Assembly: GCA_013076295.1 (NCBI GenBank)
Contig: RQOL01000523.1
Span: forward strand, 62,001 to 126,000
Length of the DNA stretch: 64,000 nt
Origin: Sanderia malayensis
Lineage: Eukaryota > Cnidaria > Scyphozoa > Semaeostomeae > Pelagiidae
Reading direction: 5' to 3'
The translations under genes were made by a program, and so were the position numbers. Below the pieces are notes generated by a model. The model searched no databases. It was not told where the DNA came from and saw only the letters and a list, made by a program, of their open reading frames with translations. This document shows, in pieces, positions 7,122-64,000 of the stretch (position 1 is its first letter; each line of letters opens with the position of its first letter).

Positions 7122-7147
7122 CCCTCATTTATGTCGCTCAGCTATTC

Positions 7148-7981: not shown

Positions 7982-7984
7982 TAA

Positions 7985-22030: not shown

Positions 22031-22034
22031 TTAA

Positions 22035-23800: not shown

Positions 23801-24335
23801 AGAGCCAGGTAAGTCATTCAAGTTTATATACAATGTTAGCTAATTAAATAAATCAGATAAGTAATGATAGAGAGTGAAATTTAGTTGTCGGATTGCGTAG
23901 TAAGAAAAAGTTCGAGCCAGAAAAACAGTTAGGGACAGTTTATCTACCAGGACGCTGATATTAGACTAGAAACATAGTGATAGTGGCGCATAACAGTAAT
24001 GGGACATCGTGCAAATGGCCTCACTTGCAAGGGGTCATACGCTGGCGCATAAAAATCTAAGGGGAGGCGGATCAACTTTTTGTTACAAGAAAACACCTCT
24101 AGAAAACACGCAGAAGGAATTTATCCTCCCCTTGATTTTCACGCATCGAGCAACGTCCCCTTGCTTAATTCAACCACGTGCGTCATGCCTCCCTTTGTCT
24201 TCAACCTCGCGTAGTAATGTGTTTGCGATAATTTACCCTTTATTTTAAGCGAGAATGATCGAAAGTAAGTTAAACATTTAGATATCAGAGTAATCATGGA
24301 TAAATGATAATTATGGTTATATCACTGTAAATTGA
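23801..24335. other. Spacer between the inverted satellite arrays
   Basis: Unique-looking sequence about 535 bp long. A 79-codon frame at 24009-24248 has no recognisable feature. Confidence 0.5.
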
Positions 24336-25300: not shown

Positions 25301-25307
25301 GTACCGG

Positions 25308-30100: not shown

Positions 30101-33100
30101 TGATAAAGCTTTGTAACTTAATACTTGAAAACTTTAGAGATTGTTTGTATTTTAGTGTAAATACATTAATTCTATTTTTGACGGACTTTTTTCTTTCTTT
30201 TTCAACATACTTGGATATAGATATCGCAACAAAAGCAGCATATCTAGTTAACAATTTTTGCCTATACAGAATAAGGCCCCAAAATATTGTTTGCAAAACA
30301 ACCCCCAGGGTGGGCTTAATCTAAGATTTACGGTATAGGTGTAGCATTATGTCCCCATTCATTTGAAATCAATGTTAGCACTGAAAAGGAAATAGGGTAG
30401 AGCTTACTTTTCTCTTCTCTTGACTCTTCGTATGGTTCAATTTCTTCCATTTCTCCCAACTCTAAAGCTGGGAAGGTGTTGAATAGATTGGCGACAAAAG
30501 CTAAATTCAGCTTTGGATTTCCTTCGACAATGTCCTGGAAAATGAAAAATGTCAATTCATGCTTGTTTTGAATAATTGATGTAATATGCAAAAGGGCAAA
30601 AGGGCATTTTTTGATGAGAAAGTTTGGAACTTTCTTATCAACTTGCCAATTTGACATTATTTTATAAAAGCAAAAACTTGAAGTTCATTCAAGCATTAAA
30701 AATAGAGAATATTTTCTATTCAATAGAACATCCAATCATTAATAAAATTTGATATTCAGTCGCCCAAAGAAGCTGGTAAATGGAACAATAAAACAATAAG
30801 TAAAGCAACAAAAAATATCAAAAATCACATAAATAAACAATAAAGACAATGGTGAAATAAACAATTGAGCAATCAGTTAGATAAATAAGTGCATGGCATA
30901 AATGAACAAGGAAGTTGATGAGTGAAAAATAAGCAACAATTATGGAGATAAATAAACTAGGATGTCTGTAGGCAAGTTGTGGATAAACAAAACCCCAAAC
31001 AAATAGAGTTGGTTAAGTCTGTCTATTTATTTTGCGAAAAGCAATAAATTTACCAACCTTGGCTCTCAAGAACTTTCTGCATTTGATTCTATCTGCATTG
31101 CTCAAGAGCATTTCAGCTCGTTTGTTCAAATTACCAACCTAAAACAGACATATAAAAACATAAAATGTACCAGCTTTAGAATATTGAAAGATGCTACAAC
31201 CATATTGCTTATTCTGTTAGCTTTCAGTGTTTATTAAAGACACATATTTCCAACATGGCACTGAAATTATGTTTAATCTTCAGAAAGAAATATTCACAGA
31301 AAATATAATTGTATATCTGTTTCTTTATGCAATGTGTGTGAAGATTGAAATATTGCTTTTAAAATCGGAAACATGGCGAAACATAGTAAATAGCATTTGC
31401 TTATGGCTGTTTTAAATTGTTTTCAAATCGCGTGGAAACGTTGCAGATATAAGGTAGTTTTAGATAAACAGGGCACTTTTGCGGACCAAACTTTTTGTCA
31501 ACCGAGAAATCTGCGATTTTCTTACGAAAAGTACTTAAAATGGTGTCTTTAAATCACAGATTTCTCGGTAGACAAAAAGTTTGGCCCGCAAAAGTGCTCT
31601 GTTTATCTAAAACTACCCTATATCGGCAACGTTTCCACGCAATTTGAAAAACAACTTAAAACAGCCATAAGCAAATGCTATTTACTATGTTTCACCATGT
31701 TTCCGATTTTAAAAGCAATTTTGAAGTTCTGTACCGATCAAAGACTGTTCAAAGATTGATATGTACAGCTGATATAAAAAAGGTATACCATACCCCCATC
31801 AAAGCCTCTGGTCTGTCTATAATGCTTGGTTCAGGAGCAATTCTGTGAAGCAAGATCGCATATGCTTCTGAATCCTACACAAAAAATAAAAATATTTTAA
31901 AAAAGAGACTTGGAAGTTGGTAAAAAATAGAGTTGATGCTGATGCTGACATTTGACTAGTTGAGGTTGAGGGTTAAAAAATCCTCAAGACATTGACAGCC
32001 TAAGTCAAACAATATAAGATATCCAGGTTGAAAAAATGGGAAAGCACAGCCATAACAAGTAATCAAGTCTATACTGTACCTTGATGTCACCAGAAAAGTT
32101 ATTGATTCGTTTGTTTGATCCCGCCTTTTCAAGATGATAATTAACCCAGCGAAGAAGAAGTTCTTCAGGTGAGAGTCTCATCAAGTCTTCAAGTGTTTCA
32201 CCATCACGCAACAGTGCTGCAATATTTGGATTGCTAGACAGCGAAATTTTAGCAAATAAACCAATCTGAAAATAAAGTGCATGAAATCAACAAATTTATT
32301 CAGAAGACAAATTCTGAATACAAGGATAAACAAGGTACACCAGATGGTCCTTTTATTAGACAACAAGAAACAAATACAGAAAAGGAGCAGATAAAATTGA
32401 TCAATTTACAAAAGTTTACTCACTCTAATAATCTGCCAAAGCAGACCAAGAAGAAGATGAGATTTTCCTTTTGACAAATCCTCTGCACCAATATTTACGA
32501 CACTGCATCCAATAGCACTAGCAGAATTGACAACCAAGATTTGGTTTTCATGGATTTTGAATGCATTCAGTTGCTTTTTATTGATTGTTCGTTCATCAAT
32601 TGTGTCGCTAACTGACTGGTTGATCATTTTGCTAGGAAAAAAAATTAGCAACAATCAAAAGTAAATACCAACTGTGAGTACATATTTCTAAAACAAGGTT
32701 GTAAAAGGTTTTTCTGTGAGCATTGATATGTAAAAAGAAAGAGGTTCTATCCTTGCCTCTCTTAATTAGGCCTGTAACAGGTTACAAGCAGCCGTCTTAA
32801 AAAATGTTACAGTGCTGCTCCTTAAACGTTGGTGCCAAAAAAATTTGCTGAAACTAAGTACTACATGCACTGCGTAGAAAAGAAACACCTAAATATCAAA
32901 ATATAAAGAGAAATAGCAAGAAAGCATACCACAGCAGAATTCCATCCTTCAACTTCTCAAACAATTCATCATCACCTGCTTGCACAGAAATTGGAAGATA
33001 TGGGGCACAATCTGGATCAGAAGCGAGCACAGAGTTGATCCAGTCAGCAAAAGCTGTGCTTTCAGCATCTGAATGTGAATGTTTTGTACCCTCAGCTGAT

Positions 33101-35034
33101 GATTCTGAAGTTCCACCTTTCACCTGTACCTTGTCCCTCTTCTTAATCAGCTCTTTAAAAGCCGATGATTTGAACTTGTTTGAGACTGATTTGTATATCT
33201 ATAAACATTTAAGAGAACAATGAAATACCTCTGTGTAAAATAATACAGAGACACCCAACTGCATGGAATCTTTATGACATGGAACATGCTTGTTCAGAAA
33301 AACTTGCAAAATACCATCGATATAATAGCCATGGTAACTTACCTCCAAAAATTCATCAAACTCGATAGTTCCATTCTTATTTGCATCAACTTCCTTGATA
33401 ATGTCTCTCAGCTTATAGCCAGGAACATTTTCTCCCAACTCTTGGAAAGCCACTCCAATTTCGCCAGAAGTAATGTGCCCATTGTGATCTAAATCAAACT
33501 AAAATTAGAGAAAATACACCCTTATTAGCAATGTGTTTGGTTCCAAACCACCAAAAGCAATTTCCCATAAGCAAAATACTTGAAAGCTTCATAAAGATTG
33601 TTAAAAAAGAAGCCAGCTTTGATTAAAGAGCGGTGTTCCACTCAGACCAAAGGTTTGTTGGAAGAAAAAAATCCAACTTTAATTAAATATATGCTGTTCC
33701 ATTCCACCAAAGGCCATAAAACACAAGAGGGGTGGTGTGATGTACACACCAGCCTTGTTACACATATTTTAATCAAAATTTTCGACAAATAAGGTTTTCT
33801 AAGTTTGCAAAGCTCTTCATTCTTTAAAATTAAGTTGGAATATGGCTCTTGATAACAAAACTGCTCATCCTTTCAATAGTAAACAATAAATGCAGGATAC
33901 AATATATTGTGTTTTGTCTTTTTAGTGGATACAATCAAAATAAAATAAAAGATGTTCTTTGGGGATGTTTCTATTGATGGTATTATTATTCACTGCTCAA
34001 AAGAAAAGAATTGAAGCAAAAATGAATTATCTAACGTCTAACCGAACCACACACATGCTCATCTTATTGTGTCTAGCCTCAGTCATAATTTTAAAACTTA
34101 ACTGGCTCAAGTTCATAAACAATTGCCCTTTTTAAGGCACCAGTAAAGAATGAATTGTTGCAAGGCAAAAAGAACAAAATTTTAATATGGTTGTGAGTGC
34201 ACATATTTCAGGAATTATTAGATTCAACAATATATATCCTTTTTGTGGACTTTTTCTTCAACAAAACATGCAAAGGCGTGCGACAAGGAAACCTATATTA
34301 TCATTAATTTTGAGCAAAGATCATTAAAGCAACCATATTTCAAAAGTTGGCTCCGTATCTAGGTCATTTACAAAAATTTACAGTCAAGCTCCAGCCATGA
34401 TTACGGCCTAATTACATCAACACTTTGAAATTATAATGAGATGATGATTAGCATGCCAAACAAATGTGGAACATCAAAATTTTCTGGACTCACGGAAATG
34501 CTTGTTACTCTATCCATCGAGGAAATAGAAACAGGGAAAAGAAGCCTCTCACCACGGGCGAAAGTGAAAGGTGAAGCATTATCTGACATTAAAATTTCGA
34601 TGTCTCCTTTTTTCACGATACCTGTGGATATAGTTTCGATGTTACCCATAAATGTTGAGCAGTTATACAAATATATCTGTATTTGCAAAACTGCTAAAAT
34701 GCCACGCCACGCCTAGGCTGCGTGTGGTGAGGACAAGGAAACAAACCATCTCGAACTCTAACGGTTTTAAAACTTTGCAAGAACATGCCATCATGATACA
34801 AATCACCACAAGCCTAAGCTAGGACAACCCGGGAAAAAGAACAGTTAAGAGTACGGACCAAACGATTAAAGTTAAGTTCAGCTAGGTTCACTGATAATAA
34901 TAACTTAATTTAAGATCGAATTCGAGCACAACAAGAACAAACGCGGCAAAACAAACAAAATGAGCCCCGATACTCACTGCATCAAATTTCTCTTTCAATT
35001 CAGCAAGTTCTTCTTGCGAGAATGAACTAGCCAT
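27185..35034 (-). CDS. Plastin/fimbrin, actin-bundling protein (13 exons)
   Basis: Product: cytoplasmic calcium-regulated actin cross-linker with two EF-hands and four calponin-homology domains. Minus-strand exons: 34978-35034, 33343-33498, 32930-33198, 32424-32631, 32080-32265, 31794-31874, 31058-31138, 30408-30534, 29531-29619, 28980-29172, 28389-28498, 27751-27894 and 27185-27340. They total 1857 nt, about 618 aa, close to the usual 630. EF loops are [12 protein letters not shown] and [14 protein letters not shown]-domain words include [92 protein letters not shown] and [19 protein letters not shown]. Introns agree in phase throughout. In exon 28980-29172 the literal frame hits a TGA. One extra C (GGG at 29119-29121 on the plus strand) and one missing base (at 29052-29058) shift the frame out and back over about 65 nt. 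The gene is otherwise complete. Confidence 0.95.
31352..31719. mobile_element. Fold-back MITE in a plastin intron
   Basis: Arms of about 162 bp (31352-31513 and 31557-31719) are near-perfect inverted repeats starting attgcttttaaaatcgg, separated by about 43 nt. It lies in the intron between plastin exons 31058-31138 and 31794-31874. No clear target duplication was identified. Confidence 0.85.
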
Positions 35035-39780: not shown

Positions 39781-40066
39781 TTTGCAGCTTAATTGGCACA
39801 CAACAATGTCTATTTACATTGAGATTCATTTAGACCAAAAAGCTCCCTTGAACAGTTTGGCGATGGAACGATCCAAATGCAATCAACTTCATTCTACCAA
39901 ATTATTGCCAACATTTTTTATATTCGCAAATACTATAATTTCACAAACGTCATTCACAAACTGGAGTCTATTGACAACATTTTAAGAATTGAAATTTTGC
40001 AGTTTTCAAAATTTTTTGGCATCTGAATGTGAATGTTTTGTACCCTAAGCTGATGACTCTGAAGTT

Positions 40067-40601
40067 TCACTTTTCGTCTCTCTTCTGAACCGACTCTTTA
40101 GAACCTGATGGCCCGACCACAACCACGGATGATTTGTATATCTAAAAACATTTAAAAGAAAAATGAAATACCTCTGTATAAAACAATACAGAAACACCCA
40201 ACTTCATGGAATCTTTATGACGACATGGAACAAACATGCTTGATCAGAAAAATTTGCAAAATACCATTGATATAATAGCCATGGGAATTTACCTCCACAA
40301 ATTCATCAAAATCAATAGTTCCATTCTTATTCGTGTCAACTTCCTTGATAATTTTTCTCAGTTCATCTTCAGGAAGATTGTGTCCCAGCTTTTTGAAAGC
40401 TGCTCCAATTTCTTTAGAAGTAAGCTGCCCATTATGATCTAAATCAAACTAAAATTGAAAAAAATTGTCAAGCAGTTCGCTGGATCTCCAAGGGCACACA
40501 AGAAACATCAACTTTGAAATAAATTAAACAATTTTTGATCTTTATAACAGCGGATGATCTCAATCTACCACCGTTCGATTTTAATTGTAAAATTATAAAT
40601 G

Positions 40602-40635
<34 letters not shown>

Positions 40636-43600
40636 ACCCTCATTAGCGATGTGTGTGTTAGGTTCCAAGCTAACAAAAACAATTTCCCATAAGCAAAATA
40701 TGGCTTCTGATAACAAAACTGCTCACCCATTCAATAGTAAACAATACGTGCAGGAATTTATATCGTGTTCTTTCTCCTTAGTGGATACAGTCAAAATAAA
40801 ATAAAATATGTTCTCTGAGTTTGAAGACGTTTTTATTGATGGTATTATTATTGATTGTTCAAAAGAAAAGAATTGAAGATTGAAGCAAAAACAAATTATC
40901 TAACCAAACCACACACATGCTCATCTTATTGCTTAGGTAGCTACATATATACCAACAAATGTCCTTGAAGAAATTTATTATAAAAGAGTCATTTCAGGAA
41001 TTACTTATTCTGTATCAGTCTGGGGAAACTGCTTAGTAGCCTTGTTCCAGAAACTCGAGACAATTCATTCAAGAGCTGCCAGACAGATTTTTAACTTGCC
41101 AAAGGGCTATCCTGATGATGTCAGTCTAACTCGTGCAAAGTGGCAACCTCTCTCTTGAATTTACGAGCGCAGCACTATAAAATGGATGCATAAGATTTAC
41201 TTCAACAAAGCACTACAAGTCTCAATACCCCCGAAAAGTTTTCCGGGGGTGGTGAGATTTCCCACACACTCCCCCCTGTTTGAGCCAAATAAGCGCCAAA
41301 CACCTTAATTATCCTCTAGTTCGTTTTCTTCGTAGTTTAACGTCTCTTTAACTGTTTCTGAGGCAACATCAGCCGCTCTTCTTCTTGTACGAAAGTTTTT
41401 TGCTTCAGGATTTAGCTTTACAACTCTATTAGTATCACATTGTAGTTCCATGAGTTCATGTTGTGTCTTTCTCTTAATGATCTTATGTACGCTTTTTTCC
41501 ATCTTTTCCAAAAGTTATCTCCACATTTGTTCAGATACTTAGCTCTTTTTCGCAAACCTCTGTCTTTGATTTCTTCGACGTCAATTTCCAACAACGCATT
41601 TCTCTCACTTGGCAACATCATGTTTGGCGTTAACACAGATAACTGTAAGTCGTCTTCCACGTAGCTAAGAGGTCTGTTGTTCATAATCATCTCAACCTCC
41701 AGCAATACTTCCTTTAACTCATCGAACTTCCGATGTGCTTTTCCTAGAACTTTATACATTGCGTTCTTTTTTAATCCGATTATTCTCTCAAACTGACCAC
41801 CCCACCATGGTGCTTCGCTCATGTTGAACAACCAGGTGATCAACATGTCCGCCAGTGTTTCATTTAACCTTTCATCCCTTCTGATGGATTTTAACAAATT
41901 ACGATATATGAAAGGCATATACACGATATAAGAAGGAAAGGCATATACACGATATATGCCTTTCCTTTGGTTTTCCCCTTTGTTACGTACTTCATTGGAC
42001 CTACAAAGTCCCCGCCTACTACTTCAAATGGTCTGTTTCCTTCAGTCCTGTTTGTTGGCAATAGACCTGGCCTTGGCACATTGTAAGGTGTAGCATGAAA
42101 TCTCTTGCATGTAGAGCAGCTCTTACGTAATCACTTTCTTTGACAGTTGTCGTAATTTAGGGACCCAATGGCTTTCTTTAACTTTGGCCATGGTAAGACC
42201 GATGCCTCCACACAACGTTGCTTTCTGTGCATGCGCTACGAATTTCTCTGTGAAAAATGCAGTGCTGGGTAGAAACACTGGGTATTCTCCTTGTATTCTC
42301 CCATGACATGGCAGATGTATATACATTTCTCGTTCCTTTTAAGCCCCAAGCTATGGAAGTCGCCTTCGAATTTCTCTGTTTTCTCGTGTCTACTTTGTGT
42401 TCTCAGTATCCACATTTTTTGTGCTTTATCAAACTCTTGATTATTGGTCCTTTTATGCGCTCCTTCGCACCCAATCTGCAGTTTTCAATGAATCTTTTCA
42501 CGAACGCTGTAATTCTAACTGCTTTCTTGAATGTGAATTTCTCAAGTGCTTGGTCTAGTGCATCGTTATCTTCCATTGTCACCTTTAACATCTCCTTTAC
42601 TGCCTTTGCTTCTCTCTCAGTCTCATCTGTGTCACAAATTATTATTTAGGCCTCTCGTTTTTCATTCGTTCATTCTTGTCTCTGTTACTCAGTGGGTGCG
42701 GGGTTTCCAAAATAGTGTCTCATTGTTTTCTTAGTTCGTTTACGTCAGTTACATTATTAAATCAAACCCTTCCTTTTGTCTGTCAACACCAGCTTGTAGT
42801 TCTACGTATGTCTGTAACTAATTTTAGATTCTGTTTGTGTATAAATTCGTTATGTAATTCAGTAGAAAGGAGAATCAACCATGGGTTAAGATCAGAATGA
42901 CCAGAAGTGCACCAAGGCAGTTTTTTGTTTGTTCTCGAAGCACTTTTCGGGTCTGTGACATCTGTATCCTGTGTCACTATGTTAGGTGGCAATTGTTCAT
43001 CCTCTGTGATCCATTGTGGCCCTTTGAACCAGTTATCGTCTAGTTTACTTGCATGACAGCCTCTGCTTGCAATGTCTGCTGGGTCTTCTGAAGTAGGCAC
43101 ATGTCGCCATTTAATATAATCTTTTTCTCTTATCTTTGCTACTCGGTTACTCATGAATCGTTTGTATCTGTTCGCTCCAGCTATCCAGTGCAAGGCAACA
43201 CAACTGTCAAGCCATCCAATTACATTGTTGATAGGATACCCTGTTAGTGCTCCTTTAACATTATCTACTAGATTAGCCCCCATGTGAGCAGAGACTAGCT
43301 CTAATCTTGGAATAGTGAGATTGTCTATTTAGTCAATGCATCAACAAGCTGAGAAAATCTCCTTTCATGCCAACTTTCATCAAGTCTGTCAAATCTGCCC
43401 AGATGCCTTCCAACTTGTCTAGCGTCATCCTTGTATACCCAGAAATCTCTCGCAACTTTTCCATAGATTCCAAGGCTTGCACGCTAGGGAGGAGCGTATT
43501 CAGAAAATCATGGATTTTCGATACATTCCCCCCTCTGATGTGCGGTAAAAACATTGTTACTTCTATATAAGAACTTATTACTTCACTAAGCTTCCAGAAT

Positions 43601-44824
43601 TTTCTTATTAAGATCTGTTTGGCTCTTTCATAACCTTCTGTGTTATACATTAGATTCTCTATCAGTAGCCTTGCTTTTGGATCTAGAAATTCCTTCAAGT
43701 AGTTAAATTTGGTGATGGAATCTATTTGTTTCTTATCTATTTCTGACTCAAATTGATTCTAGAATCTGAACCAATCAATATGCTTTCCCTTGAATTTTGT
43801 GATCTTCAGTTTTGGTAATTTTATATGACCGTAACCCCCTTGCAATTTTCGAGGCCTTTCTTTGGCATCACCCAGTTGTTTCTCGAATTCAGCCCTTTGA
43901 TTGAATGTTAGTTTCTCTAGCTCAATATCTATTTTAAGTTAACGTTGTTTTGTTTTCCTTAGTTTGACTTCTTCCTCTCGTTTTGTTTGCTCTTTGAATT
44001 CTTCTGATGCGCCTTTCAATCTGTGAATATAAGGCTAGAATTCTTTCCGACAATCATCCATTTGTATTCTCCATTCTCTGATACTGACTGGATTTTCATC
44101 ATTTTCGATATTGAGTTCTTGAATATGCATTTTCAGGCTTTGATATCCGCTCAATTTTGATTCGTAAACACTGGTTGTCTCTCAATCTTTCTCGGTTCAC
44201 TTTTTGTAATGATTTCCTAGGTTTCTTCAGATATAAACGAAATAAATTTGATTTTGCTTTTTATCTTTCTGATCAGCTCATCGATTTCTGTCATCGTCCT
44301 CGTGTCTCCAAACTTCGCAAGGAAATTATTAAACCGAATGTAGCTATATTCTCACTGAAATAACCTTGATATGATCTCATTAAACTCCCATGGTGTGCCA
44401 CTTTGTCGGGAATCTTCGTTAGAATGCACGACAACATAAACTCACAATTTCAATATTTTATATAAACCCGAGAAAATCTGCAACATGATTCAACATAACA
44501 GCAAGAAAAACTAATAAAAATAAAAGGTCTCTCAGCGTAAATAAAACAAAAGCGAAAAGTTAGCATGCCAAAGAGATGTGGAAAGTAGAAATTTTCTGGA
44601 CTCACGGCAATGCTTGTTACTCACGAAAAAGAATAGTTAAGAGCACGGACCAAGTCATTAAAGTTAGGCTCAGTTGGGTTCACTGATAATAATAACTTAA
44701 TTTAAGATCGAATTCGAGCATAACAAGAACACGCGGCAAAACAAACAAAATGAGCCCTGATACTCACTGAGTCAAATTGCTTTCTCAATTTAACAAGTTC
44801 TTCTTGCCATAATGCACTAGCCAT
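40067..44824 (-). CDS. Plastin-derived EF-hand-only unit (partial gene duplicate)
   Basis: Minus-strand exons: 44768-44824 (ATG 44822-44824), 40293-40448 and 40067-40141 with stop TGA at 40067-40069. They match plastin exons 1-3 in length and phase: 57 nt, 156 nt and the start of exon 3. The joined frame is 95 aa. Both EF loops keep every calcium ligand position (DLDHNGQLTSKE and DTNKNGTIDFDE). Many other residues differ from plastin, and the exon-3 equivalent ends early. Splice sites are intact (gtgagt and gtaaat donors, ttttag acceptors). The TATA box is kept at 44863-44869, but about 70 bp between it and the ATG is gone. The first intron contains a LINE fragment and a BEL/Pao remnant. It could be a small calcium-binding protein gene or a pseudogene whose frame has survived by chance. 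Confidence 0.6.
40602..40634. repeat. (aat)n microsatellite
   Basis: About ten uninterrupted ata/aat units in the first intron of the plastin-derived unit. The equivalent plastin intron lacks the expansion. Confidence 0.9.
40965..41215 (+). mobile_element. LINE reverse-transcriptase fragment
   Basis: The plus-strand translation includes RVISGITYSVSVWGN and SRAARQIFNLP, the region following the RT thumb in CR1/jockey-like LINEs, with stops after about 60 codons. It is a decayed fragment. Confidence 0.65.
41305..43740 (-). mobile_element. BEL/Pao LTR retrotransposon remnant, internally deleted
   Basis: In minus-strand order: a gag segment with the DUF1759-type core (43333-43698); an RNase H-side segment with SEDPADIASRG and WFKGPQW (42783-43283); integrase pieces with FEVVGGDFVGPMKY (41891-42079); and the integrase C-terminal region with WWGGQFERIIGLKK and NNRPLSY (41418-41924). 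Protease and reverse transcriptase are missing between gag and RNase H, and frames are interrupted. Further gag-like charged sequence continues to about 44100. LTRs were not identified. It sits in the intron of the plastin-derived unit. Confidence 0.85.
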
Positions 44825-50114: not shown

Positions 50115-53100
50115 ATGAAGCTGGCATACATTGTGGTTCTCCTCTCACTGGCAGCCGGATCAAAGTCAGGTTTGTTAATTAAATGGGTAATTTTCAGAAA
50201 CCTCCGATTTTGTGTTCATTATTTAAGATAGGAAAACGTAACTTCTCAGTGTCAACAATCATTTCATCCGCTCATATAACCCCTAAAGTCCAACTTTGTT
50301 TTGGCAAAAAATCTAATTAATTTCATTGTCTAATTTTAGCTCCATTTAAGAGCGAAAGTCTGACGTATCCTTTCGAAGGAATAAAAGGTAATTTCATTTC
50401 GTATTCTGTAAACCAATTTTGACAATTTTATATTTATCTGATTAACTTATTTTGACTTCAAGAATTTAAGATTGAAGCAACTGGAAGTGGGCTGTGCGTT
50501 AACAAAGATGCAAAACTATCACTTTGTGAAGACAAAAATGCAAAGATAATTTGGAAATGGCAAGGGAACAATTTGCAAAACACACACACAGGGTTGTGTC
50601 TCATTTATAAGAATGACAATGTTACTGTCGATGACTGTTCTTTGAAGGGCACAAAGAAAAACAAGGTATGCACAAACCTCGTTATCTCAAACTCGATTAT
50701 CTCGAGCTATTCTCCATCTCGGACTAAATTCTCTTCCCGTACAAAACCTCGAATGTTCCGAACAAAAATTTACAAAGGATTTAAATTATCAATTATTATA
50801 ATAGCAATGATAATTCATATTAAAAATAAATGGACTTTAGTTATGTATCCAACAACAAGTCTTGCAAAGAACAAAGAACAATTTTAACAATGGATGAAAA
50901 TAGGGGCCAAGTTAACCCTGTCTAACATGTGGGGCAGAAATAGGTCCTATATAAACATTCATTGCCCACTTGAAAGTTATCAGATAACAGAATGAAGGAA
51001 ACATTTGATTGCCTTCGTGGTGTCATGTGACTTCAAGATGACCAAATTTGGAAAAAGGTCACAATACGCAAATTTGCATCGTTAAAATTGTTGTTGATGT
51101 CATTTCCCGTCATTCTCGGTTTTCACAAAAAGCGTGAAATGAGACGTCCAGGTATCAAACAATTATTGCTGATCGATGAAGAACTAACGCTCCAATATTA
51201 TAAAGCAAACTTCAATAATGAGATATATGAATCAAATGACAAATGTTTCTCTTCTTTGTTTATTTTTTACTCTTACATACAAATTAATGACCATACATAC
51301 ATTTTCTCGAATTCCAACCTAAATGCCTAAAAAGTTTTTACTTCCCATGTGAGTTGGAGATACGGTACTCGACTGTATGTCTCCAACCTCTAAATTTTGC
51401 ACATTCGGGAAAATATTCAGTTAAATATGAATTTGATAATACCATACCATATTGAAGAGTATTACTTGTAGCTTAGTTAACAAAGATGGAGGTAGTTCTG
51501 TGAGTTATGTTATGATGGATGTATGTTTATATTGCAGATATCCACGCAAGTTACTTGCTCGAAGACAGTGATTTCTATTGCAAAGAAAAGATGTTTGAAA
51601 GTGACCGAAGCTAATGCATTGACGACAGTAAATTGTGATAGCGAGAAGCCATCAAGTTTCAATATTTATTTGGGAAAGCCTTTGCTTCCAAGGGGCATGA
51701 TATGCATTCCAAAGTGTAAGTATTGGAGTTTATTAAAAGGGAAAGTTGAATATCAAGTTATCAATGTGATAAAAATCACGCATGCATTTGTCGATTTTCA
51801 AATGGACACATGGAATGAAATGTCCATGTCCATGTGCCTTCATCCATGGATGTTTAGATTGAACAAACTCCAATTGACCTAACTAAAGGAATATAAACTA
51901 TATGTTGTGCAACTAATCTTTAAATTATCAATGCGATATTATTATTATTAAATATTATTTAAATATGAGACGCTTTCTTGCTCCTAACAGAGGCATCCGC
52001 TCTCTGTCCTGTCCACAGTGAAGTTTGTCTTCATATTTAGCCCTACCAAACTTTGTTCTTTTAATCGAGTACCTACCAAGAAGGGACAATTATTAAATAA
52101 AGTAAACTTTTCCTTCATTCATTTTAGACGATATTGGAAAACGAACCAACGATCCTCAATACTATTATTTCAAAAATGACGACTTCAAAATAACATGGGT
52201 GACAAAATACGTCAAACTGTATGTTGTGTTCAGTGTGCCATTGGTGAGACCCAAACCTTTCCATACTAATATATAGAATAGGTGTATTGATGTGCAGGTT
52301 GCATATAATATACTGTGTGTATACTACACATCTTACATTACTTTTGCATTGCATGTCCGCTTAGGCCCAATTTATACATTTTAATTAGATGAAAAGATTA
52401 ACAAAAATGTACGGAGATAAAGTCGATGAAGAAGTCAAAGCAATTATCTCAGATGGAATCAGCATGCTAGACAAGGTAAGAAGTTCGATCTGCCTTATAC
52501 TCTTATACTTTTAACAGAATTCGTTTTTCAACGTTATTCCCAATAAGCAACAGCTAATTTTAGTTTGATATCTTAACAAACGCCCCCTGTTTAAGTGATT
52601 CTTATTATAACCGCCCTATGAAAGCTATTTAATAGCTACATGCCATGGGCAATAATTCAAATAGATGTATATATATGTGTGGTTTGAATATTCCATTCTT
52701 CTGATTGTGCAAGCACAGAAGAAGGAGGGTTGCTTAAACATTTGCTGCGCTAAGAAAAATCTCACGTATATCTTATTCGATTATAAGGCCTACCGTCAAA
52801 TCAACCTTCGAGTATTACTTGCTGGTTACGAGGCATGGAAAGACAACAGTCCACTTGGTGACACGATTGTCTACAACACATTGAAAGCCAACTTCAGAAA
52901 CTACTCTCACTATCATTTGAGAGCGAATCATGAGTTCGATGGCAGCATATACTTCCAGTAAGTCAGAAAAACGAACGCGAATCTCAATAAATTGACAACC
53001 ACATCCAGATGATTGCGAGCTCTGTAGTCAAGTATTTTCCATAAGAAAACTACAAAACCCAAGTTTATGAATATGCCCCTGAGTTGCTCTTTGCAATGCG

Positions 53101-56100
53101 AGAAAAGTGGAACAGAACAAACAAATTTCACAAAAAGGAAGAAGATATAAATAATGAACTTCTTCATGTTACCAAAGACTCTTCTTCTGTTTCCTTTTGG
53201 TTTCACCAACAATGAATTTTAATGTCACAATTAGCCCTCATTATAAGGGCTGAAATCATGGGAGGAAGACAGGACCCATGGTTAGTCGATTGATCGTAAT
53301 TCAACTATGGGCGGTACTGATGTAGCTACACGCAACAAGTTTTGAAAAAGAAGCTTGTAGTAAAAATAAAAAAAAGGAAAAATAATATTTATATGCGGCT
53401 GCAGGGGATATATATAGTATATATACGCAACTACATATATATAGTTGCGTACGGTGTAAAAATCTATGCATTTCGTTGCAGTAACAATTTTAATGGTCGC
53501 TGGACAGATAATAATGGCAAAACGTTGAATTTGGGGGGAGCTGGAATGTCAGATCTTTGCAGAGTAAAAAAAGACAGCCCGAAAAGCGAAATGTTCATCA
53601 TGGCGATGATGACTGGTGTAAGAATAAAATAATTTTTTTCAATTAAAAGTCAAATCAACCTAAACATTATACGCATTCTGTGGCGCCGTTATTATCTCGG
53701 CCTTTATTGATTAACCAGTCATAACCAGAAAATTTTAGACACTTACCGGTATATGAACGCATAAACCTAGCTGAGATTTGTAAATTCCAAAAATGCTTCC
53801 TGCATGGTATTGCTCTGAACTGAAATAAACTCCCTCGTCATGAAATTAATATGATCAACAATCGAATAAATATCTCAGGCATTTATTGTTGTTGCATTCT
53901 ATTCCCACAGTATTCTGCCCTTCGAATTTTAAATGTGATTTCACATGAGTTTGGTCATCAGGTTTTCCAAGGACACAACTTTGGTAAGCAATTTGGCTGT
54001 TTCTTTCCTTGCAGTGTTTGTTAACATAATTAATTGCTATCGTAAATAAAAGTCTATGTTGCTTTTTCTCAGAGCCTGGAAAAAAATGTCCATTCTATAG
54101 AATGTTTGGAGCGAAATGCACCATGGGTGGAAATGAGTAAGTATACAAAACAAAAACCTTTCATCAGTTCCAACACAGTATGTTAGCTATCAACTTCCCG
54201 GCCAGCCAATCAGGTTATGCGAGTCACTTCGCTGGAACGAACTGACTTTATAGACCAAGGCAATGCTCGCAAAATGCAAAAATTCATTCTCTAATCATTA
54301 TTATTATTTTATCATTATAATGCAATGAGTAACGCAAATAGCTTTGTGTGGCTCCCTTTTTCGGAAATGAAAAATCAATAACGTTTTTGAACATCTTTTA
54401 GTGAACCAAAGGGATTCAGTAGCAACTTTTTCAAAGCATTACAGAGTAAAGAAAGGAGTAATCTAACAGCATGTGTCAATACTAAGCCGAATCTAGGAAA
54501 GGTGACTTTTACAACACTTTCAGTGTTTATTTTGCAAAAACATTTAATCACTGGGTTTTGGACGGATATTTAAATATACTCGATAATAAAAACAACTGCT
54601 TTCAATTTTCAGATACAAAGTCCACAAATGTGTGGAAATGGAATCGTAGAGATAGGCGAAGAATGCGACTGTGGAGATTCACAGGTATATCTGTCATTTA
54701 TGATTATGGTGAAACCTTGTGTAATAAACATTTGCTTGTCTTATAACCATTCTAATTCGTATTCAAATTTACATTGAATTCTAGGACTGTTTGACTTCAA
54801 ATCCATGCTGTGATGGAATGATATGCAAATTGAAACCCGGTGCACAATGTGGTACAGGGAAGTGTTGCTCACAATGCAAGGTAACAAATGTGCAAATTCA
54901 TTGGCCTCCTTTAGGGGTTCTATATTTGGATTACACTGTACTTATAAAATTTTAAATGCAAACTCACCAATTTAGCTCCGTGTTTTTATTGGTGTGCTCT
55001 GCTCCAATTCGAAACTTGCACTTTTACATACAGCTAAAAATAAACAATAACATTAAAGGTTATTTTCACATGTAAGTCATGTAAACGCAGCTATTTATCC
55101 TATATATTATTACGTTTATTCCCAATTTTATACTGCTTCGTGACTCCACTATTCCCCATTCTAAACCTTCTACATTCGCTTCTCCATTTCCAATATTTAT
55201 TGACATGTGATTAAATTATATTTTTTCAGAGACAAATAACTGGCGCATGCGCAGGTATGAACCAAGCTGTAATGTATATGTACAACATGATTAGCGTTGT
55301 TTTCAAATTGCCATTTTTAGTAACAATAGCATACAGTTTTAGTGCAAACCAACCCAGTTCATAAGAGATTGAACAGCCCACCACACAGTGTTCTTGCAAC
55401 GTTCTATCGAAATTTAATGCGACTGTGTGGCACTGTTAATTGTCAATAGGCCTAGTAATAATACAGTGCACTAACGATATTAAAAATTAAAAAATGACTG
55501 TAATCTGATCTGGTTGTATCATATTTTTTAATAATGTAGGACCGACTGATGTTTTAACAAATAGAAATGGAATTATTCAATCTGACCCCAAAGTGTTCAA
55601 TGTTCATCGTCATTGGAAAATTGTTGCAAAACCTGGCGAGACCATCATGTTGAGATTCCTTAAAAAGAGTACGGTTATGGATTTTCACATAGATTGTGCT
55701 TATGATTATATCGAGGTAAATTCAACATATTTATTTCAAGGTCAACTACAAAGAGTCAGAACAGGGACGTCGCCAAGGAGGGGGGGATTATGGAGACACT
55801 GTACCCCCACCATGCGCTTGGCGGCGCAATGAAAAGGGTCTTTTGACGTTTGCCAAAAATTATGGGGAACACGCATGAACACGCCCACTCCCGAAAACCA
55901 CGCCCCAGTCTCGGCAAATACTAACTTTGTAACCTCCCAAAAAGCCCCGTCCTTGAGTGGAAATCCCCAAAGAGAAGTAGATTCTCCCCCAAATTGTTGA
56001 CAGTCATTCATCGAGCAAGTCAGGATTAAGGACGAAATAGCAACGATTTGAAGCTTATAATGAAGGAATCATAAACAGATAAACTAGTACAATGATGTAA

Positions 56101-57697
56101 TAAGCTAAACTATTAAACTAAGTTTAGCTTTAGCTCCAATGCATTAAGGTACTAAGTTGAATTTTGCTTTTCTAAAGGTTCGAGATGGTGGCAGTGAAAC
56201 TTCGAAAGTGCTTGGAAAATACTGCAACAACAGACTTATGCCATACTTCTTGACGTCATCATCAAACGAAATGCTTATCACTTTCCATTCTGACATGTCA
56301 TTTGCAAGTGTCTTCAAAATGCAATATTCTATTGTGCACCCAGACAGTTATAGACAAGGTAAGTTACACATGACATTACACTTATTATCCTCAAAAATAT
56401 TTTCAAAACACCCCTTTATCTATGCCTAATAATATTTCGCTTCATTGCTTGCAGGAAGTTTTACTTTAAGAAAGGCTAGAGAGTTTCGTACCCACACAAA
56501 GTGCACTGGAGAAGGGATGAAGCTAAAATGTGATAACAAAACATTAGAAATTGAATCTTCACATTATGGATATATTCAAAGTTCTAAATGTACAAAGAAT
56601 GCCACTTCTTCATGCCAAACAGTGGAGTATGAATCTTATCTTCAACTCTTCCTTCACTAACCTAATTTAACTTTTATTACTTGACGCAGCTCGAACATCT
56701 TGAATCCCAATTAAATTTGGATTTAAATCATTATGAAAAGTAAATTAACTTTGCAGTGTAACATCGATCATGAAGACAAAATGCGAAGGTAAAAAGTTCT
56801 GCAAAGTAAAAGTGAAGGAAAGTGACTTTGGCAACCACTGCCAAGGAGTACAAAAAGGTCTAAGTGTGAAATTTGATTGCGTCAAGCAAGATTCCGCACA
56901 ACAAGGTATGCTAGCTTGAGATATGATAGTCACTAGTCGTGAGTTGCGAGTTGTGAATTCCAAGTTGTCTATATTTTATAACAAGTTTCTATATACCATA
57001 TATAATTAAAGATATATAAAATTAAAGATATTAAAGACATATAATTAAAGATATTCTCTTTCAAAAATCCAACTGACAACTCGCAACTCGCAGAATGTAA
57101 TCCCTCTGCTGGCTTTATTTGCATTAGAAATAACTAAATAAAGTTGAGGATACTGTAATAAATTGATGGTGAGAAAGGTATGGTGAAACAGTATCGCTGT
57201 TTATAGAAAAAAGCAGTATTCTCAAAATCATTTAGCTCGTTGGGAATGTCCCAAAATCAATGAATCCCAAAACAGAGAACCTGCCCAATCCTAAAATGAA
57301 ACGTTCACCATTTTCACATATTTTAAATCAAATCTGCAAATCTTTCTGCACGATTCACATGAAACGGTTTTCTTTTAAACTTTTAGGAAAGTGTGTTACT
57401 TATGACAGCGTGCAGAAAAGACTTGTTTACAAAAGTCAAGTTTTGCCATGCCAAGAGAAATTCAAATGGCTGGATAACAACATTTTATACCACGAAGGCA
57501 GTAAAATGTGCTTGAATGCGCACCTGGGGTTGACACACGACTGCTACTCTCAAAGCAATGCACAAGTCAAACTTGGCAATGGAGTAATGCAATCTGTTTC
57601 TTCGGGTCTGTGTTGGTTCTCTTCAAAAACAGGAAATGACCTCATTTATACGACAGATAAATGTGAATCGGATGTCCAGGAAATAATATTTGAGTAA
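50115..57697 (+). CDS. Secreted multidomain metalloprotease (ADAM/venom-metalloprotease type), copy 1
   Basis: A 19-exon gene: 50115-50169, 50340-50387, 50463-50665, 51538-51715, 52128-52243, 52389-52475, 52719-52957, 53482-53617, 53911-53983, 54073-54136, 54402-54501, 54613-54684, 54785-54880, 55230-55254, 55540-55715, 56178-56358, 56455-56626, 56757-56905 and 57387-57697. It totals 2481 nt, about 826 aa, with all phases consistent. Domains in order: signal peptide (1-18); a ricin-type trefoil-like lectin region (about 20-160) where ADAMs have a propeptide; a reprolysin-like catalytic domain (about 190-430) with zinc motif [11 protein letters not shown] at residues 366-376; a short disintegrin-like module starting [19 protein letters not shown] (about 498-615); SUEL galactose lectin (about 617-722); and a C-terminal trefoil-like lectin segment. 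The adhesive loop and cysteine-rich region of ADAMs are absent. The substrate is unknown; a venom or defence role is possible but not shown. Exon 14 is only 25 nt. Confidence 0.88.
55750..56120. other. Anomalous insert in a metalloprotease intron
   Basis: The intron between CUB exons contains a GC-richer patch starting cagggacgtcgcc, reminiscent of a hAT-like MITE end. I could not find the other terminus or a target duplication. Confidence 0.35.
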
Positions 57698-60600
57698 CCA
57701 AGGTAATTCTCCCTTGTAAAGAGACTCATTTCACATAATATTCTCTCTTCCTACTTTGTCAACAGCAGAATTAACGCTAATACAAAAATTTTTTACCAGC
57801 CGTAGTTTGTGGTGTTGTAGTTTTTTCTTAGAATAACCCCTGTAAGCACGTCACATACATGTCATACACTTTTTTTTAATAAGCAACCGCTCAATACGCA
57901 GCTAGGGCTGGATTGACCCTAACGTTAAGCAACTCGAGGGCTCAATTGAATTACTGTTAGCAACTTTCATGTTGTTTGGAAAATGTTTGGTTCTTATATT
58001 TTTCATGTTCAAGTTTTTGACTAACGTGTTTACACTTACTGTTTCTTAGGCGTTATAGTTGATGATTTTGAACCACGAACTTAGGAGTGGTACCCTGGGG
58101 ACAGGAGGGACTGTTAAGGTACAAACAATTTTAAGCAACTTTTAAGCAACTTTGAGGGCTAAAATATCCAAAATTTTAAACAACTTTCAGGGCTGGACCA
58201 AAGTCTAGTGGCTTATTAAAAAAAAGTGTATCGTGATTTACGTTAAAAACACGTAAACCAACACAATGTACTTTTTGATTCCTGATGCGTTTTGGCTTAT
58301 GATTTGGACAATCTGGCTAACTATAAATCAATCAAAACTTAATCAACACATTTTGTCCTTAAAATTCCACTTATGTTAAACTGCTTTTTAATTTACCAAC
58401 GAGCTATTGTAACATGTTTGCTTTATTGCTAAATATCAACAGAATATTATTTTCTTCCCAGAAAGACGACAATGACCCATTGAAGAATGGACTTCATCTT
58501 CAACCTGCACTTACTTTAATTTCGTATTGTTTTACTTTTTAAACTTATTGATAACGTCACGCTGTTGTAGCTTGGGTGTGTGTCTTAATAATAGATAGTA
58601 TCAAACTGGAGAAAAGATTGTATATTTTTTGAACATTTTACTTTATGTCCTGGCTGCTTTACATAATAACTGATACAAATTTTGGTCTTTTGTTCACACA
58701 CGGACAACATGTTCTGCTTTGATTGCTTACTAAGATATATACTGGAGATCTAGCTACATCATTTAAAAGTACGCCAGAATTCTTCTGCATGTAACATAAA
58801 AACAAAATATGTTTTTATGCTCCAACAATTATTATTATAAACTCAGCAAACACAATTCTCAGCAACTTCAGCCGACATTAAAGGAACCAAAATTCTGAAA
58901 TCTCTTTGAAATAGCAGGGCCATGCTTCTGGCACCTTAGTACTTTGCGCACCTTTGAATGAAATACATATACACACGCAAAGTGCCAAAAAATGATCAAA
59001 TGTTTCTTTACTTGCACTTGCCACTTGAAACCTAGGTCTAAATAGTTTTAGAGCAAATTTTGGGACTCTCAGAAACAGAAATGGCGTGAAAATGACAGAC
59101 ATCGAATGATGAGGAGTGCAAGGTAAGCGTAAATAGATAATCTTTAAGCTTGAAACAACTATTGTTGGTTAGTCAGAGTGATTGGCGATACCCTTTTTGC
59201 ACAGTTTCTACCTTTCAGATTCATTGCGTAATCTGGGACATCCATTGTATTTTTAACCTTACATAGTATTCATAATTTTGCAATTTATAAAAAATATATC
59301 CAAAGTGATATTTTCTTAATTATCACGACTTGCAGTATAGTTTGTTTGTGATAATTGCTCCATAGTCCATCCCATCTCAAGTTGCAAGTTGCAAGTTTCT
59401 CAGAGGAATCTTATAAAAAACTGAAAGAAACATCATAAGAAAAAGGATAATTTGCTCGTGCTTATACTGCAAATGGACAAGTATGTTGATTTCAACGTCC
59501 CGATACTTGAATTTTTAACATGGCGGATGCAACATAGTTTTAACAACCACATGAACTTGAAATCATTCAGTTAAATTTCAAGCTGGTATTCTTGAAATTC
59601 ATGAGCTAAATTGTCTTATAAGAGTTAAACGAGACCAGACCATCAACTTGCTGGGTCTAGCGGGACAATTTAACAACCTTGCATCCTCGTAACGTGTTGC
59701 TACGTTGCTACGTTGCTTAATGCAATCATGGATAAAGTTACAAAAGCACATAAAAGTTAAAACGATCAACATATTCATTGCAGCTATTTAAATACAGCTA
59801 CTTAAGCAGTTAAATATTTGATAAAAGATCAATTGCTTTTATCCTATCAACTTGCCAAGAAAACCGGGGAAAAGAAAAATAAGCTGTTTGCACAAATATC
59901 TCTAATTTGTTTGCATGTTATTTTATAAGGAACTATTTTATAAAAGAACTCAAATGCAGGTGGTCAATGAATTCAACAAACGTATAATACTAAAGATAAA
60001 CCAATAAGAAACTATTCCATTTTGAATATTTTTATTGCTGTAAATAACTAAGAATTGGAAACCTGATTTCATTCATTTGCAATCAAAGTTTGAATAAAAT
60101 GTGTGCTACACGAACTGTCCTGCTCTGCTAATGTGCAAACCTCTCTCCATAATTTTCATGCCAACTTTTAAATGCATAGAGAGGCTTTAGGGCACTTAAT
60201 ATGCACTTGGAATTAGGAACTGCAAAATAACTTTGCTAGCTTTAACTAAAAAAGCCTGCTATTGCAAATACTCCTGTTTAAAATAAACTTCTGGTGATAC
60301 ATGCGCTCTATCATTTTTTGCGTAGCCCTGACTGCGCAAGCTCAAATGCTGCATGAAGCTTAATCTGCTCAAATAGGTCAATGAAAGGGCAGAAAACAAG
60401 GGCAAATACGTTTCATTGGAAAATTTTTAACGTTGTGTTTTTTGAATAAGGAACACACTGTTAATTATAACTTTTAATGTCAACCTTTTATGATGTGAAA
60501 ATCTGGTCTGCACGAATTATAACACAGTTGAAACCCACTATTTCCACTGGCCGCGATCTCAAACATTCGTTTAGCGCCGAACGATTTTCCATTTTCTTTC

Positions 60601-60970: not shown

Positions 60971-63900
60971 ATGATGCTGGCATACATTGTGGTTCTCCTC
61001 TCACTGACAGCCGGAGCAAAGTCAGGTTTGTTAATTAAGTGGAATAATTTCCGGAAACCTCTGATTTTGTGTTTATGCAAGACGGGAGAATGTGATTATG
61101 ATTTCACAATGTTCATCTGGTACATATAACACATAAATTTCACATTTGCTGCGGCAAAAAATCTAATCATTTCATTATCTAATTTTAGCTCCATTTAAGA
61201 GCGAAAGTCTGACGTATCCTTTCGAAGGAATAAAAGGTAATTTCATTTCGTATTCTGTAAACCAATTTTGACAATTTTATATTTATCTGATTAACTTATT
61301 TCGAATTCAAGAATTTAAGATTGAAGCAACTGGAAGTGGGCTGTGCGTTAACAAAGACGCAAAACTATCGCTTTGTGAAGACAAAAATGCAAAGACAATT
61401 TGGAAATGGCAAGGGAACAATTTGCAAAACACACACACAGGGTTGTGTCTCATTTATAAGAATGGCAATGTTACTGTCGATGACTGTTCTTTGAAGGGCA
61501 CAAAGAAGAACAAGGTATGCACAAACCTCGTTATCTCAAACTTGATTATCTTGAGCTGTTCTCCATCTCGAACTAAAGTTTCTCCCGTACAAATAACTCG
61601 GTTTTTTCGAACAAAAGTTTACAAAGGATTTAAATTATCAATTATTATAATAGCAATGATAATTCAGATAAGTGGATTTTAGCTATGTATTCAACAAGTC
61701 TTGCAAAGAACAAAGAACAATTTTAAAAAATGGATGAAAATGGGGGCCAAGTTAACCCTGTCTAACATGTGGGGCAGAAATAGGTCCTATATAAACATTA
61801 ATTGCCCACTTAAAAGTTATTAGATAAAAGAATGAAAGAAACATTTGATTGCCTTCGTGGTGTCATAAGACTTCAAAATGACCAAATTTGGAAAAAGGTC
61901 ACAATACGCAAATTTGCCTCGTAATTGTTGTTTGATGTCATTTCCCGTCATTCTCGGTTTTCACAAAAAGCGTGCAATGAGACGTCCAGGTATAAAATTA
62001 TTATTGCTGATCGATGAAGAACTACGCACCAATATTATAAAGCAAACTTCAATAATGGACTATATAAATCAAATGACAACTGATTTTTTTCGTGGCTTAT
62101 ATTCTACTCTTACATACAAATGGCACTTTTTTCTGGAATTCCAACCTAAATGTCTAAAGAGTTTTTAATTCCCGTACGAGCTGGAGAGAACGGGACTCGA
62201 CTGTAGCTATGTCTCCAGCCTCTAAATTTTAAACTTTTGGGAAAATACTCTGTTAAATATGAATTTGATAACCTCATACCATTTAAGGAGTACTACTTGT
62301 GGCTCAGTTAGGAAAGATGGAGGTAGTTCTGTAAGTTATGTTAAGATGGATGTATGTTTATATTGCAGATATCCACGCGAGTTGCTTGCTTAAAAACGGC
62401 GATTTCTGTGGCAAAGAAAAGGTGTTTGAAAGTGACCGAAGATAATGCGTTGACGACAGTAATTTGTGATAAAGAGAAGCCATCAAGCTTCAATATTTAT
62501 TTGGGAAAACCTTTGCTTCCAAGGGGCATGATATGCATTCCAAAGTGTAAGTATTGGAGTTTATTACAAGGGAAAGTTGAATATCAAGTTATCAATGTGA
62601 TAAAAATCACGCATGCATTTGTCGATTTTCAAATGGACACATGGAATGAAATGTCCATGTCCATGTGCCTTCATCCATGGATGTTTAGATTGAACAAACT
62701 CCAATTGACCTAACTAAAGGAATATAAACTATATGTTGTGCAACTAATCTTTAAATTATCAATGCGATATTATTATTATTAAATATTATTTAAATATGAG
62801 ACGCTTTCTTGCTCCTAACAGAGGCATCCGCTCTCTGTCCTGTCCACAGTGAAGTTTGTCTTCATATTTAGCCCTACCAAACTTTGTTCTTTTAATCGAG
62901 TACCTACCAAGAAGGGACAATTATTAAATAAAGTAAACTTTTCCTTCATTCATTTTAGACGATATTGGAAAACGAACCAACGATCCTCAATACTATTACT
63001 TCAAAAATGACGACTTCAAAATAACATGGGTGACAAAATACGTCAAACTGTATGTTGTGTTCAGTGTGCCATTGGTGAGACCCAAACCTTTCCATACTAA
63101 TATATAGAATAGGTGTATTGATGTGCAGGTTGCATATAATATACTGTGTGTATACTACACATCTTACATTACTTTTGCATTGCATGTCCGCTTAGGCCCA
63201 ATTTATACATTTTAATTAGATGAAAAGATTGACAAAAATGTATGGAGATAAAGTCGATGAAGAAGTCAAAGCAATTATCTCAGATGGAATCAGCATGCTA
63301 GACAAGGTAAGAAATTCAACCTGCTTTATACTCCTATACTTTTAACAGAATACGTCTTTCAACGTTATTCCCAATAAGCAACAACTAATTTTAGTTTGAT
63401 TTTGATATCTTAACAAACGCCCCCTGTTTAAGTGATTCTTATTATAACCGCCCTATGAAAGTTGTTTAAACATTTGCTGCGCTAAGAAAAATCTTACGTA
63501 CCGTAAATCCTTGAATAAGCTCCCGGGGGCTTATTTGCAAAAATGAGTTTTTGGGTGGGGGCTTATTCGAGGGGGGCGCTTATTCGAAGGGGGCGCTTAC
63601 TTCAAAGTTTTGCTTTTTCCACAAAGGTTGACAGAAAAAATACGACATAATTTTCTCAATCAGCTAAACTTTTTTCACAAAGTGCTGTGTGAAGATCTAA
63701 CAAAACTTATAATTTGTTTATCTTCACGAAAATTGCGCTTCTCTTTGCTTTTTGTCTCCAGTCAAAGGAAGTGATACTGTATAGCTATTGTCCTGTGGGT
63801 TCTTTTTCGAAATAAGATATTATTCTGCGCTTATACTTCGGGGGGGGGGACTTATTTACAAAAATGATTTTTTAGGTGGGGGCTTAATCGAGGGGGGGCT

Positions 63901-64000
63901 TATTCGAGCGTGGGGGCTTATTCGAGGATTTACGGTATATCTTATTCGATTATAAGGCCTACCGTCAAATCAACATTCGAGTATTGCTTGCTGGTTACGA
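60971..64000 (+). pseudogene. Metalloprotease copy 2, disrupted and cut by the window edge
   Basis: Tandem paralogue of the gene at 50115. Exons 1-6 are intact: 60971-61025, 61189-61236, 61312-61514, 62369-62546, 62959-63074 and 63220-63306. Exon 7 is damaged in two ways. About 100 bp covering the intron end, the splice acceptor and the first exon bases is missing (junction near 63463). A 435-bp TIR element (63501-63935) is inserted inside the remaining exon, whose coding sequence resumes at 63936. Both defects lie upstream of the zinc-site exon, so a full protein is unlikely from this allele. A truncated N-terminal lectin product remains possible. Exon 4 differs from copy 1 at several residues, while later introns are nearly identical. 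Confidence 0.85.
63501..63935. mobile_element. TIR element in exon 7 of metalloprotease copy 2, TA target
   Basis: Begins ccgtaaatccttgaataagc and ends with the near reverse complement. TA flanks at 63499-63500 and 63936-63937. The interior repeats gggggcttattcga. The intact exon of copy 1 (near 52768) has cacgtatatc with a single TA, so this is a recognisable empty/filled pair. Fragments of the family lie near 36300, 39185 and 49458. Confidence 0.92.

Follow-up and report, generated by a model that had tools for sequence, protein, structure and literature searches.

The ADAMs and the P-III snake venom metalloproteases (SVMPs) contain an M12B protease followed by a disintegrin shoulder with calcium site II, and the metzincin zinc motif, HExxHxxGxxH, is the textbook signature of their superfamily. 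Here, we describe a gene of the jellyfish Sanderia malayensis whose product shares this core. Compared with the ADAMs and P-III SVMPs, it shows no propeptide, disintegrin loop, ADAM cysteine-rich domain (ADAM_CR) or transmembrane segment, and both the zinc-motif glycine and the next Asp are changed. The gene occupies positions 50115-57697 on the plus strand of the window, by which we mean the whole stretch of 64,000 nucleotides analyzed (GenBank assembly GCA_013076295.1, contig RQOL01000523.1, positions 62,001 to 126,000 of the forward strand), and is copy 1 of four tandem paralogs, of which copies 1, 2 and 3 are complete. With moderate confidence, we read its product as a secreted, soluble zinc endopeptidase that would be guided by exosites and would belong to a distinct M12B subfamily of S. 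malayensis and lancelets. Among the literature matches listed, no paper describes this architecture in its title or at the start of its abstract; the available portions of PMC4877951 and PMC11509761 hold some of the words and no such protein, and the word lectin is not present in the available text of PMC1867822, on Ciona metzincins.

The gene comprises 19 exons, with GT-AG borders at all introns, and forms a single open frame of 803 residues, from a hydrophobic signal-like segment at the start to a stop codon at 57697; the coordinates given in the original prediction were exact. Exon 1 (50115..50169) contains the start codon and the signal peptide, whose cleavage is predicted; it has 94.5% DNA identity to copy 2, and a matching start is found in copies 3 and 4. 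After a short linker in exon 2 (50340..50387, from the gene model), an N-terminal cysteine-rich, ricin-trefoil-like module is encoded in two halves, by exon 3 (50463..50665, residues 35-102) and by exon 4 (51538..51715, residues 103-162; gene model and copies). The M12B (reprolysin-type) protease domain follows in exons 5-11 (52128..54501, residues 162-410; gene model, Pfam and copies). Exons 12-14 (54613..55254, residues 411-475) encode a disintegrin shoulder subdomain that ends before the adhesive loop, exons 15-16 (55540..56358, residues 475-594) a CUB domain, and exons 17-18 (56455..56905, residues 594-701) a SUEL/rhamnose-binding-lectin domain. The last exon, 19 (57387..57697, residues 701-803), encodes a C-terminal cysteine-rich, CysR/trefoil-like module and the stop codon. 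Phase-1 introns at module borders are the usual mark of module shuffling. The introns at the borders of these modules (before exons 3, 5, 15, 17 and 19) are of phase 1 in five of five cases, compared with 2/13 of the other introns (p = 0.0025, with the borders picked after the domains had been seen). The protease/disintegrin border is of phase 0, and counting it changes the comparison to 5/6 vs 2/12 (p = 0.013). Such borders are as expected for shuffled modules.

To place the protein among known ones, we used two protein searches, with 40 hits at E up to 0.001 in one and 58 at E up to 0.000001 in the other. Eight of the hits are members of the same family: P0001, from EukProt, and seven proteins of the lancelet Branchiostoma (P0002-P0008; source names LOC109466730, LPA, LOC118428295, apolipoprotein(a)-like and others). 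Between the family and ordinary ADAMs, the score drops from 525 to 116 bits. P0001 was rejected as an orthologue from a second species, since it is the public gene model of copy 3, identical to it at 537/537 aligned residues (of its 612), and thus adds no phylogenetic depth. No hit with a cnidarian name was present in either list, in which some hits are unnamed and for which the search required shared five-residue words.

The Branchiostoma proteins are 33-39% identical to the jellyfish protein over the matched part, and in them, as in the jellyfish gene, the disintegrin ends early, at profile position 46-48, with CUB next. The order of protease, half disintegrin, CUB and SUEL in P0002 equals the jellyfish core order. 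The six others share the order up to CUB, five of them with a protease over the cut-off and P0008 truncated. None of P0002-P0008, two of which (P0007, P0008) are without their N-termini, matched the M12B propeptide at E up to 0.01. In contrast to the jellyfish protein, they have no N-terminal cysteine-rich module, and kringles replace the C-terminal module, with a GON domain in addition in three. The original prediction knew of no named family with this exact order. This is true of the end modules, which are peculiar to S. malayensis among the proteins found, but not of the core, which recurs in P0002. In an unrooted tree of 24 protease-disintegrin rows and 268 columns, from which P0008 and copy 4 were left out, a group of three copies from the jellyfish and six proteins from lancelets was split with 100/100 support from 15 ADAM-type proteins, namely 14 of the 51 other proteins returned and L001, a canonical ADAM of the jellyfish's own genome. 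L001 (contig C613, 3043662-3044258, minus strand) has the classical zinc motif, a full disintegrin and ADAM_CR; its 688 residues are encoded by a single open frame in which no intron is visible. A family known from one jellyfish and from lancelets implies either that the gene is old and has been lost many times or that sampling has gaps; transfer between animals seems less likely.

The zinc-binding motif (53944..53976, residues 343-353), with His343, His347 and His353 as the predicted zinc ligands, is identical in copies 1 and 2; copies 3 and 4 have HELGHQIFQGH, and lancelet motifs read HEMGHQFFVGH and similar. We compared the motif in ten family sequences, the four copies and P0002-P0007; P0008 was excluded from this count because its model reads HEIGHQFFLHNKH. 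Thus, six of the seven Branchiostoma proteins share the changed motif, and P0008 departs further. All ten keep the three zinc histidines, the glutamate and the Met-turn, and all have a glycine at motif position 10. At position 8, the place of the usual metzincin glycine, Phe is found in eight and His in two. The canonical HExxHxxGxxH motif is therefore present in part only. The 51 other returned proteins served as controls: 44 of them have HExxHxxxxxH and seven have no motif. Position 8 of the 44 motifs is Gly in 42 and Asn in two mosquito proteins, and the third His is followed by Asp in 43/44 controls vs 0/10 family sequences. The two mosquito proteins are ADAM-like (P0011, P0012), with the zinc motif HEMGHNFNMDH and Asn at the usual Gly. 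The Met-turn itself, CTM (54117..54125, residues 371-373), is invariant in the protease alignment.

Profile searches of the core gave scores above the Pfam cut-offs for Reprolysin (residues 188-406, 33.4 bits, cut-off 20.8), CUB (residues 481-582, 52.4 bits, cut-off 21.4) and SUEL_Lectin (residues 617-692, 45.2 bits, cut-off 31.4). Disintegrin (residues 423-470) scored 33.7 bits, slightly below its cut-off of 35.1, because profile positions 1-48 of 75 alone are present. No match to the M12B propeptide (PF01562), to ADAM_CR (PF08516) or to a thrombospondin repeat was found in the 803-residue protein with Pfam at E up to 1. In the control proteins P0009 and P0010, PF01562 was over its cut-off, and in L001 it was just below (21.1 bits vs 23.7); PF08516 was found in 3/3 controls. 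Beyond the signal region, no transmembrane-like segment was present at a mean hydropathy of 1.6 or more. This, together with the signal-like N-terminus, agrees with the original prediction of a secreted protein, and the protein is probably secreted.

The half disintegrin was further examined with calcium-site patterns, the consensus of which was taken from the available part of PMC4885070. The family rows were copies 1 and 2 and P0001-P0008, and the site II pattern accepted Asp as well as Glu at one ligand, since lancelets have Asp there. Site II, in the shoulder, was found in 10/10 family rows vs 8/11 ADAM rows; site III, in the arm and loop, was found in 0/10 vs 11/11. Since site II is kept and site III is gone, the retained part would be a spacer, with the integrin-loop part lost. 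The claim that the disintegrin is cut short before the adhesive loop was borne out by the site III signature being absent, by site II being present and by the profile ending at 48/75.

Next, the array was followed along the genome (184,004,477 bases in 918 contigs). Copy 2 begins in the window with its 5' part (60971..64000, plus strand), which covers exons 1-6 and the first part of exon 7, and runs past the window to position 130961 of contig C469; copies 2 and 3 extend on this contig up to position 150181. All 19 exons are present in copies 2 (802 residues) and 3 (801 residues), where they have the phases of copy 1 and GT-AG borders and are free of internal stops. Four copies lie on the minus strand of contig C809, and contig C810 has a further copy 4; most simply, these contigs would represent a second haplotype plus the fourth gene. 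Copy 4 shows the signal, the N-terminal module and protease exons 5-11, and then the second half of CUB together with SUEL and the C-terminal module; its exons 12-15 lie outside the stretches examined. Copies 2 and 3 repeat the 19-exon series with its order, phases and GT-AG borders, and copy 4 shows most of it, so that chance cannot explain the series. Contamination was considered and rejected: the contig's repeat 18298-18971 matches at least 42 genome sites (40 of 124 candidates scored), many of them on multi-Mb contigs. The genome gave no COX1 match, in keeping with the mitochondrial genome of S. malayensis having been assembled separately (PMC7305137); its 89 homeobox matches are compatible with, though no proof of, the 101 genes given in the Sanderia paper.

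The ratio of nonsynonymous to synonymous substitution rates (dN/dS) between copies 1 and 3 is 0.19 over exons 4-19. By module, it is 0.14 in the protease, 0.10 in the shoulder, 0.14 in CUB, 0.19 in SUEL, 0.19 in the N-terminal module (exons 3-4) and 0.32 in the C-terminal module (exon 19). For copies 1 and 2 the ratio is 0.27, highest in CUB (0.41) and in exon 19 (0.44, the maximum of any module and pair). The protease ranges from 0.14 to 0.17 among copy pairs. By these values, the multi-module protein is maintained by selection. As DNA, the 5' ends of copies 1 and 3, with parts of introns 1 and 2, are alignable (90-96%); from exon 4 on, mainly the exons align (71-94%), and exons 14 and 17 do not. 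The idea that nothing but exons aligns between these copies was rejected, since introns 1 and 2, at least in part, and the intron between exons 12 and 13 align as well, and a segment downstream of copy 1 (57865-57960) recurs near 140.1 kb. Between copies 1 and 2, identity in the first five introns ranges from 76% to 100%. Such patchy identity in introns and exons suggests gene conversion among the copies.

The two end modules are less easily assigned. The N-terminal module (residues 36-165) has eight cysteines and matched Ricin_B_lectin at E 0.0037 (17.9 bits, below the cut-off of 29), with a Beta_helix match also listed (E 0.13). The C-terminal module (residues 701-803) has six cysteines; its match, at E 0.031 (14.5 bits, below the cut-off of 27), was to CysR_MRC2_N, the related CysR module of the mannose receptor. 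Among the copies, Ricin_B was matched by 4/4 N-terminal modules (best E 0.0023) and CysR by 2/4 C-terminal modules (best E 0.037). Exon 19 of copy 1, taken without the few residues that precede it, matched no Pfam family. A PDB sequence search with each end module alone returned one chance-level match each (E 0.77 and 0.83), and no PDB match was obtained with four-copy profiles of either module. A protein search with residues 36-165 gave no match at E up to 10 among 75 candidates scored. Kinship of the N- and C-terminal modules with each other was not supported (profile comparison, 2.2% probability). Given family matches below the cut-offs and no significant PDB match, we call the end modules lectin-like at best.

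These results divide the claims of the original prediction. It had proposed a lectin in place of a propeptide; indeed, no M12B propeptide is recognized, but the lectin identity of the N-terminal module is below the cut-off. Likewise, of CUB and two lectin modules downstream, CUB and SUEL are over their cut-offs and the C-terminal module is not. As for the profiles that it named, Reprolysin, CUB and SUEL passed, and Disintegrin and Ricin_B stayed under. Elsewhere in the S. malayensis genome (contigs C836, C765, C392, C421, C699, C829, C858 and others; L032-L034), we observed 73 Ricin_B_lectin matches. These are clustered, and several are paired in one frame of about 400-520 residues, a layout that we take to be reminiscent of CEL-III-type lectins.

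The SUEL module has eight cysteines (C610-C692), by which its fold is probably kept. Its YGR motif reads YGY in 4/4 copies, and DPC reads NHC, NHC, KHC and QHC, with YGY and NHC in copy 1; the SUEL of lancelet P0002 retains both YGR and DPC. According to the available parts of PMC3269628 and PMC10817417, the two motifs are conserved in almost all rhamnose-lectin domains, with exceptions known. Classical rhamnose or galactose binding by this module is therefore doubtful. The loss of YGR and DPC is the strongest result against glycan targeting, which the original prediction had suggested; this suggestion is weakened, as the end modules are lectin-like below the cut-off only and the solid SUEL module is without YGR and DPC.

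How could such a protein work? In the reading that we favor, the exosite-guided endopeptidase, the protease domain would be active. Its three zinc histidines, catalytic glutamate and Met-turn are intact, but the usual turn glycine is missing. The half disintegrin would be a spacer stiffened by calcium, with no role as an integrin ligand. CUB, SUEL and both end modules would be exosites by which the enzyme is held on its presumed target, the surface of a matrix, mucus, prey or microbes. Occupying the position of a propeptide, the N-terminal module could be released at a dibasic site: DIGKR, at the start of exon 5, is a possible processing site that is identical in 4/4 copies. With such a release, the module may also keep the enzyme latent. 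Several findings weigh against this reading: Phe in place of the HExxHxxGxxH glycine could harm catalysis, the end modules have no significant match to any lectin family or PDB entry, YGR and DPC are lost from SUEL in all four copies, and the public model of copy 3, P0001, omits both end modules.

The first of these findings leads to an alternative in which the protein is a pseudoprotease that binds without cutting and whose retained fold is a scaffold carrying CUB, SUEL and the end modules. The changes at position 8 and after the third His, set against Gly in 42/44 and Asp in 43/44 controls, fit this idea, as does the lancelet model P0008, which has diverged further (HEIGHQFFLHNKH). Nevertheless, the histidines, Glu and Met conserved in 10/10 sequences and a protease dN/dS of 0.14-0.17 speak for retained activity, and the Asn of P0011 and P0012 indicates that the position can vary. 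We consider a pseudoprotease quite unlikely. The omission of the end modules from P0001 raises a different doubt, that the end-module exons and the protease exons come from different transcripts and the gene model is an artefact. Compared with the DNA (L008:9634, L010:5849), the P0001 model of copy 3 begins within an intron and swaps exon 19 for a downstream frame. We think that it is this model that is wrong, which is no proof. The complete exon set repeated in tandem argues for one gene, with a reading frame unbroken across 19 exons in copies 1, 2 and 3 and end modules that flank copy 4 too. Moreover, at E up to 0.001, all matches of the N-terminal module (16/16) and of the C-terminal module (8/8) in the genome are on contigs C469, C809 and C810, that is, in the cluster and its apparent other haplotype. 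Separate transcripts are unlikely, and an artefact of this kind would be very surprising.

A further alternative is that the four genes encode venom metalloproteases, nematocyst proteins that act like snake-venom P-III enzymes. Searched against the PDB, the protease-disintegrin part matches snake venom enzymes best, e.g., AAHIV and ecarin, and tandem duplication is common in venom genes. In addition, the S. malayensis nematocyst proteome is reported to contain four 'zinc metalloproteinase-disintegrin' proteins, but the genes behind them are not named in the available part of that report (PMC7766711). Further M12B loci exist in the genome, including that of a canonical ADAM, and no module in any pair has a dN/dS above 0.44. 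Furthermore, the closest relatives are in lancelets, which are not known to have stinging cells. We hold a venom role to be rather unlikely. About the origin of the exosite-guided endopeptidase, we offer a tentative proposal, which we would not expect to hold in full. An old, unnamed M12B subfamily may predate the split of cnidarians and bilaterians, have disappeared from most lineages, and do without both the metzincin glycine and cysteine-switch latency. One jellyfish lineage would then have gained an orphan cysteine-rich module in the propeptide position, which would latch the enzyme and address it to a surface.

The remainder of the window contains several other features. A direct tandem duplication of about 5.8 kb (3101-8932 and 8934-14767) has 99.93% identity, and is either very recent or a duplication of the assembly. 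An 18-base minisatellite of about 47 copies (20167-21019) is strongly G-skewed, with several frames open, and a satellite array at 22030-25305, built of units of about 150/450 bases, forms two opposed blocks. By eye, plastin/fimbrin-like exons with an EF hand and calponin-homology-like pieces were recognized on the minus strand at 27188-33498; a partial duplicate of the first of these exons, with about 80% DNA identity, lies at 40019-40931. Retroelement-like frames, integrase-like and reverse-transcriptase-like by eye, are found at 41421-43758 (minus strand) and 16190-16915 (plus strand).

The locus is of moderate interest, mainly for its zinc motif and its disjunct distribution. A clade that, in jellyfish and lancelets alike, retains the metal ligands of the metzincin signature without its glycine raises the question of whether this glycine is needed. 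The gene is also an example of module shuffling on phase-1 introns that combined an M12B protease with CUB and lectin modules but included no propeptide or disintegrin loop, and one of its copies is apparently mis-modelled in a public protein set.

Known systems resemble the jellyfish protein in part. According to the available text of PMC4885070, ADAMTS13 is likewise a secreted M12B protease with CUB domains, and its propeptide is unusually short; the jellyfish protein differs in showing no thrombospondin repeat and in a disintegrin part that fits the true disintegrin profile. The JVMP17 venom metalloproteinases of Nemopilema, in the part of PMC9414644 available, are also scyphozoan secreted zinc proteases, but their peptidoglycan-binding and hemopexin domains give them an MMP-like layout. 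SUEL lectins such as CSL3 share with our protein a SUEL domain over the cut-off and its eight cysteines, and differ from the jellyfish copies, which have YGY for YGR and NHC, KHC or QHC for DPC. Finally, ADAMDEC1 (decysin), for which the available source passage names no CUB or lectin modules, has its third zinc ligand changed to Asp, whereas the jellyfish protein keeps all three histidines and changes the glycine.

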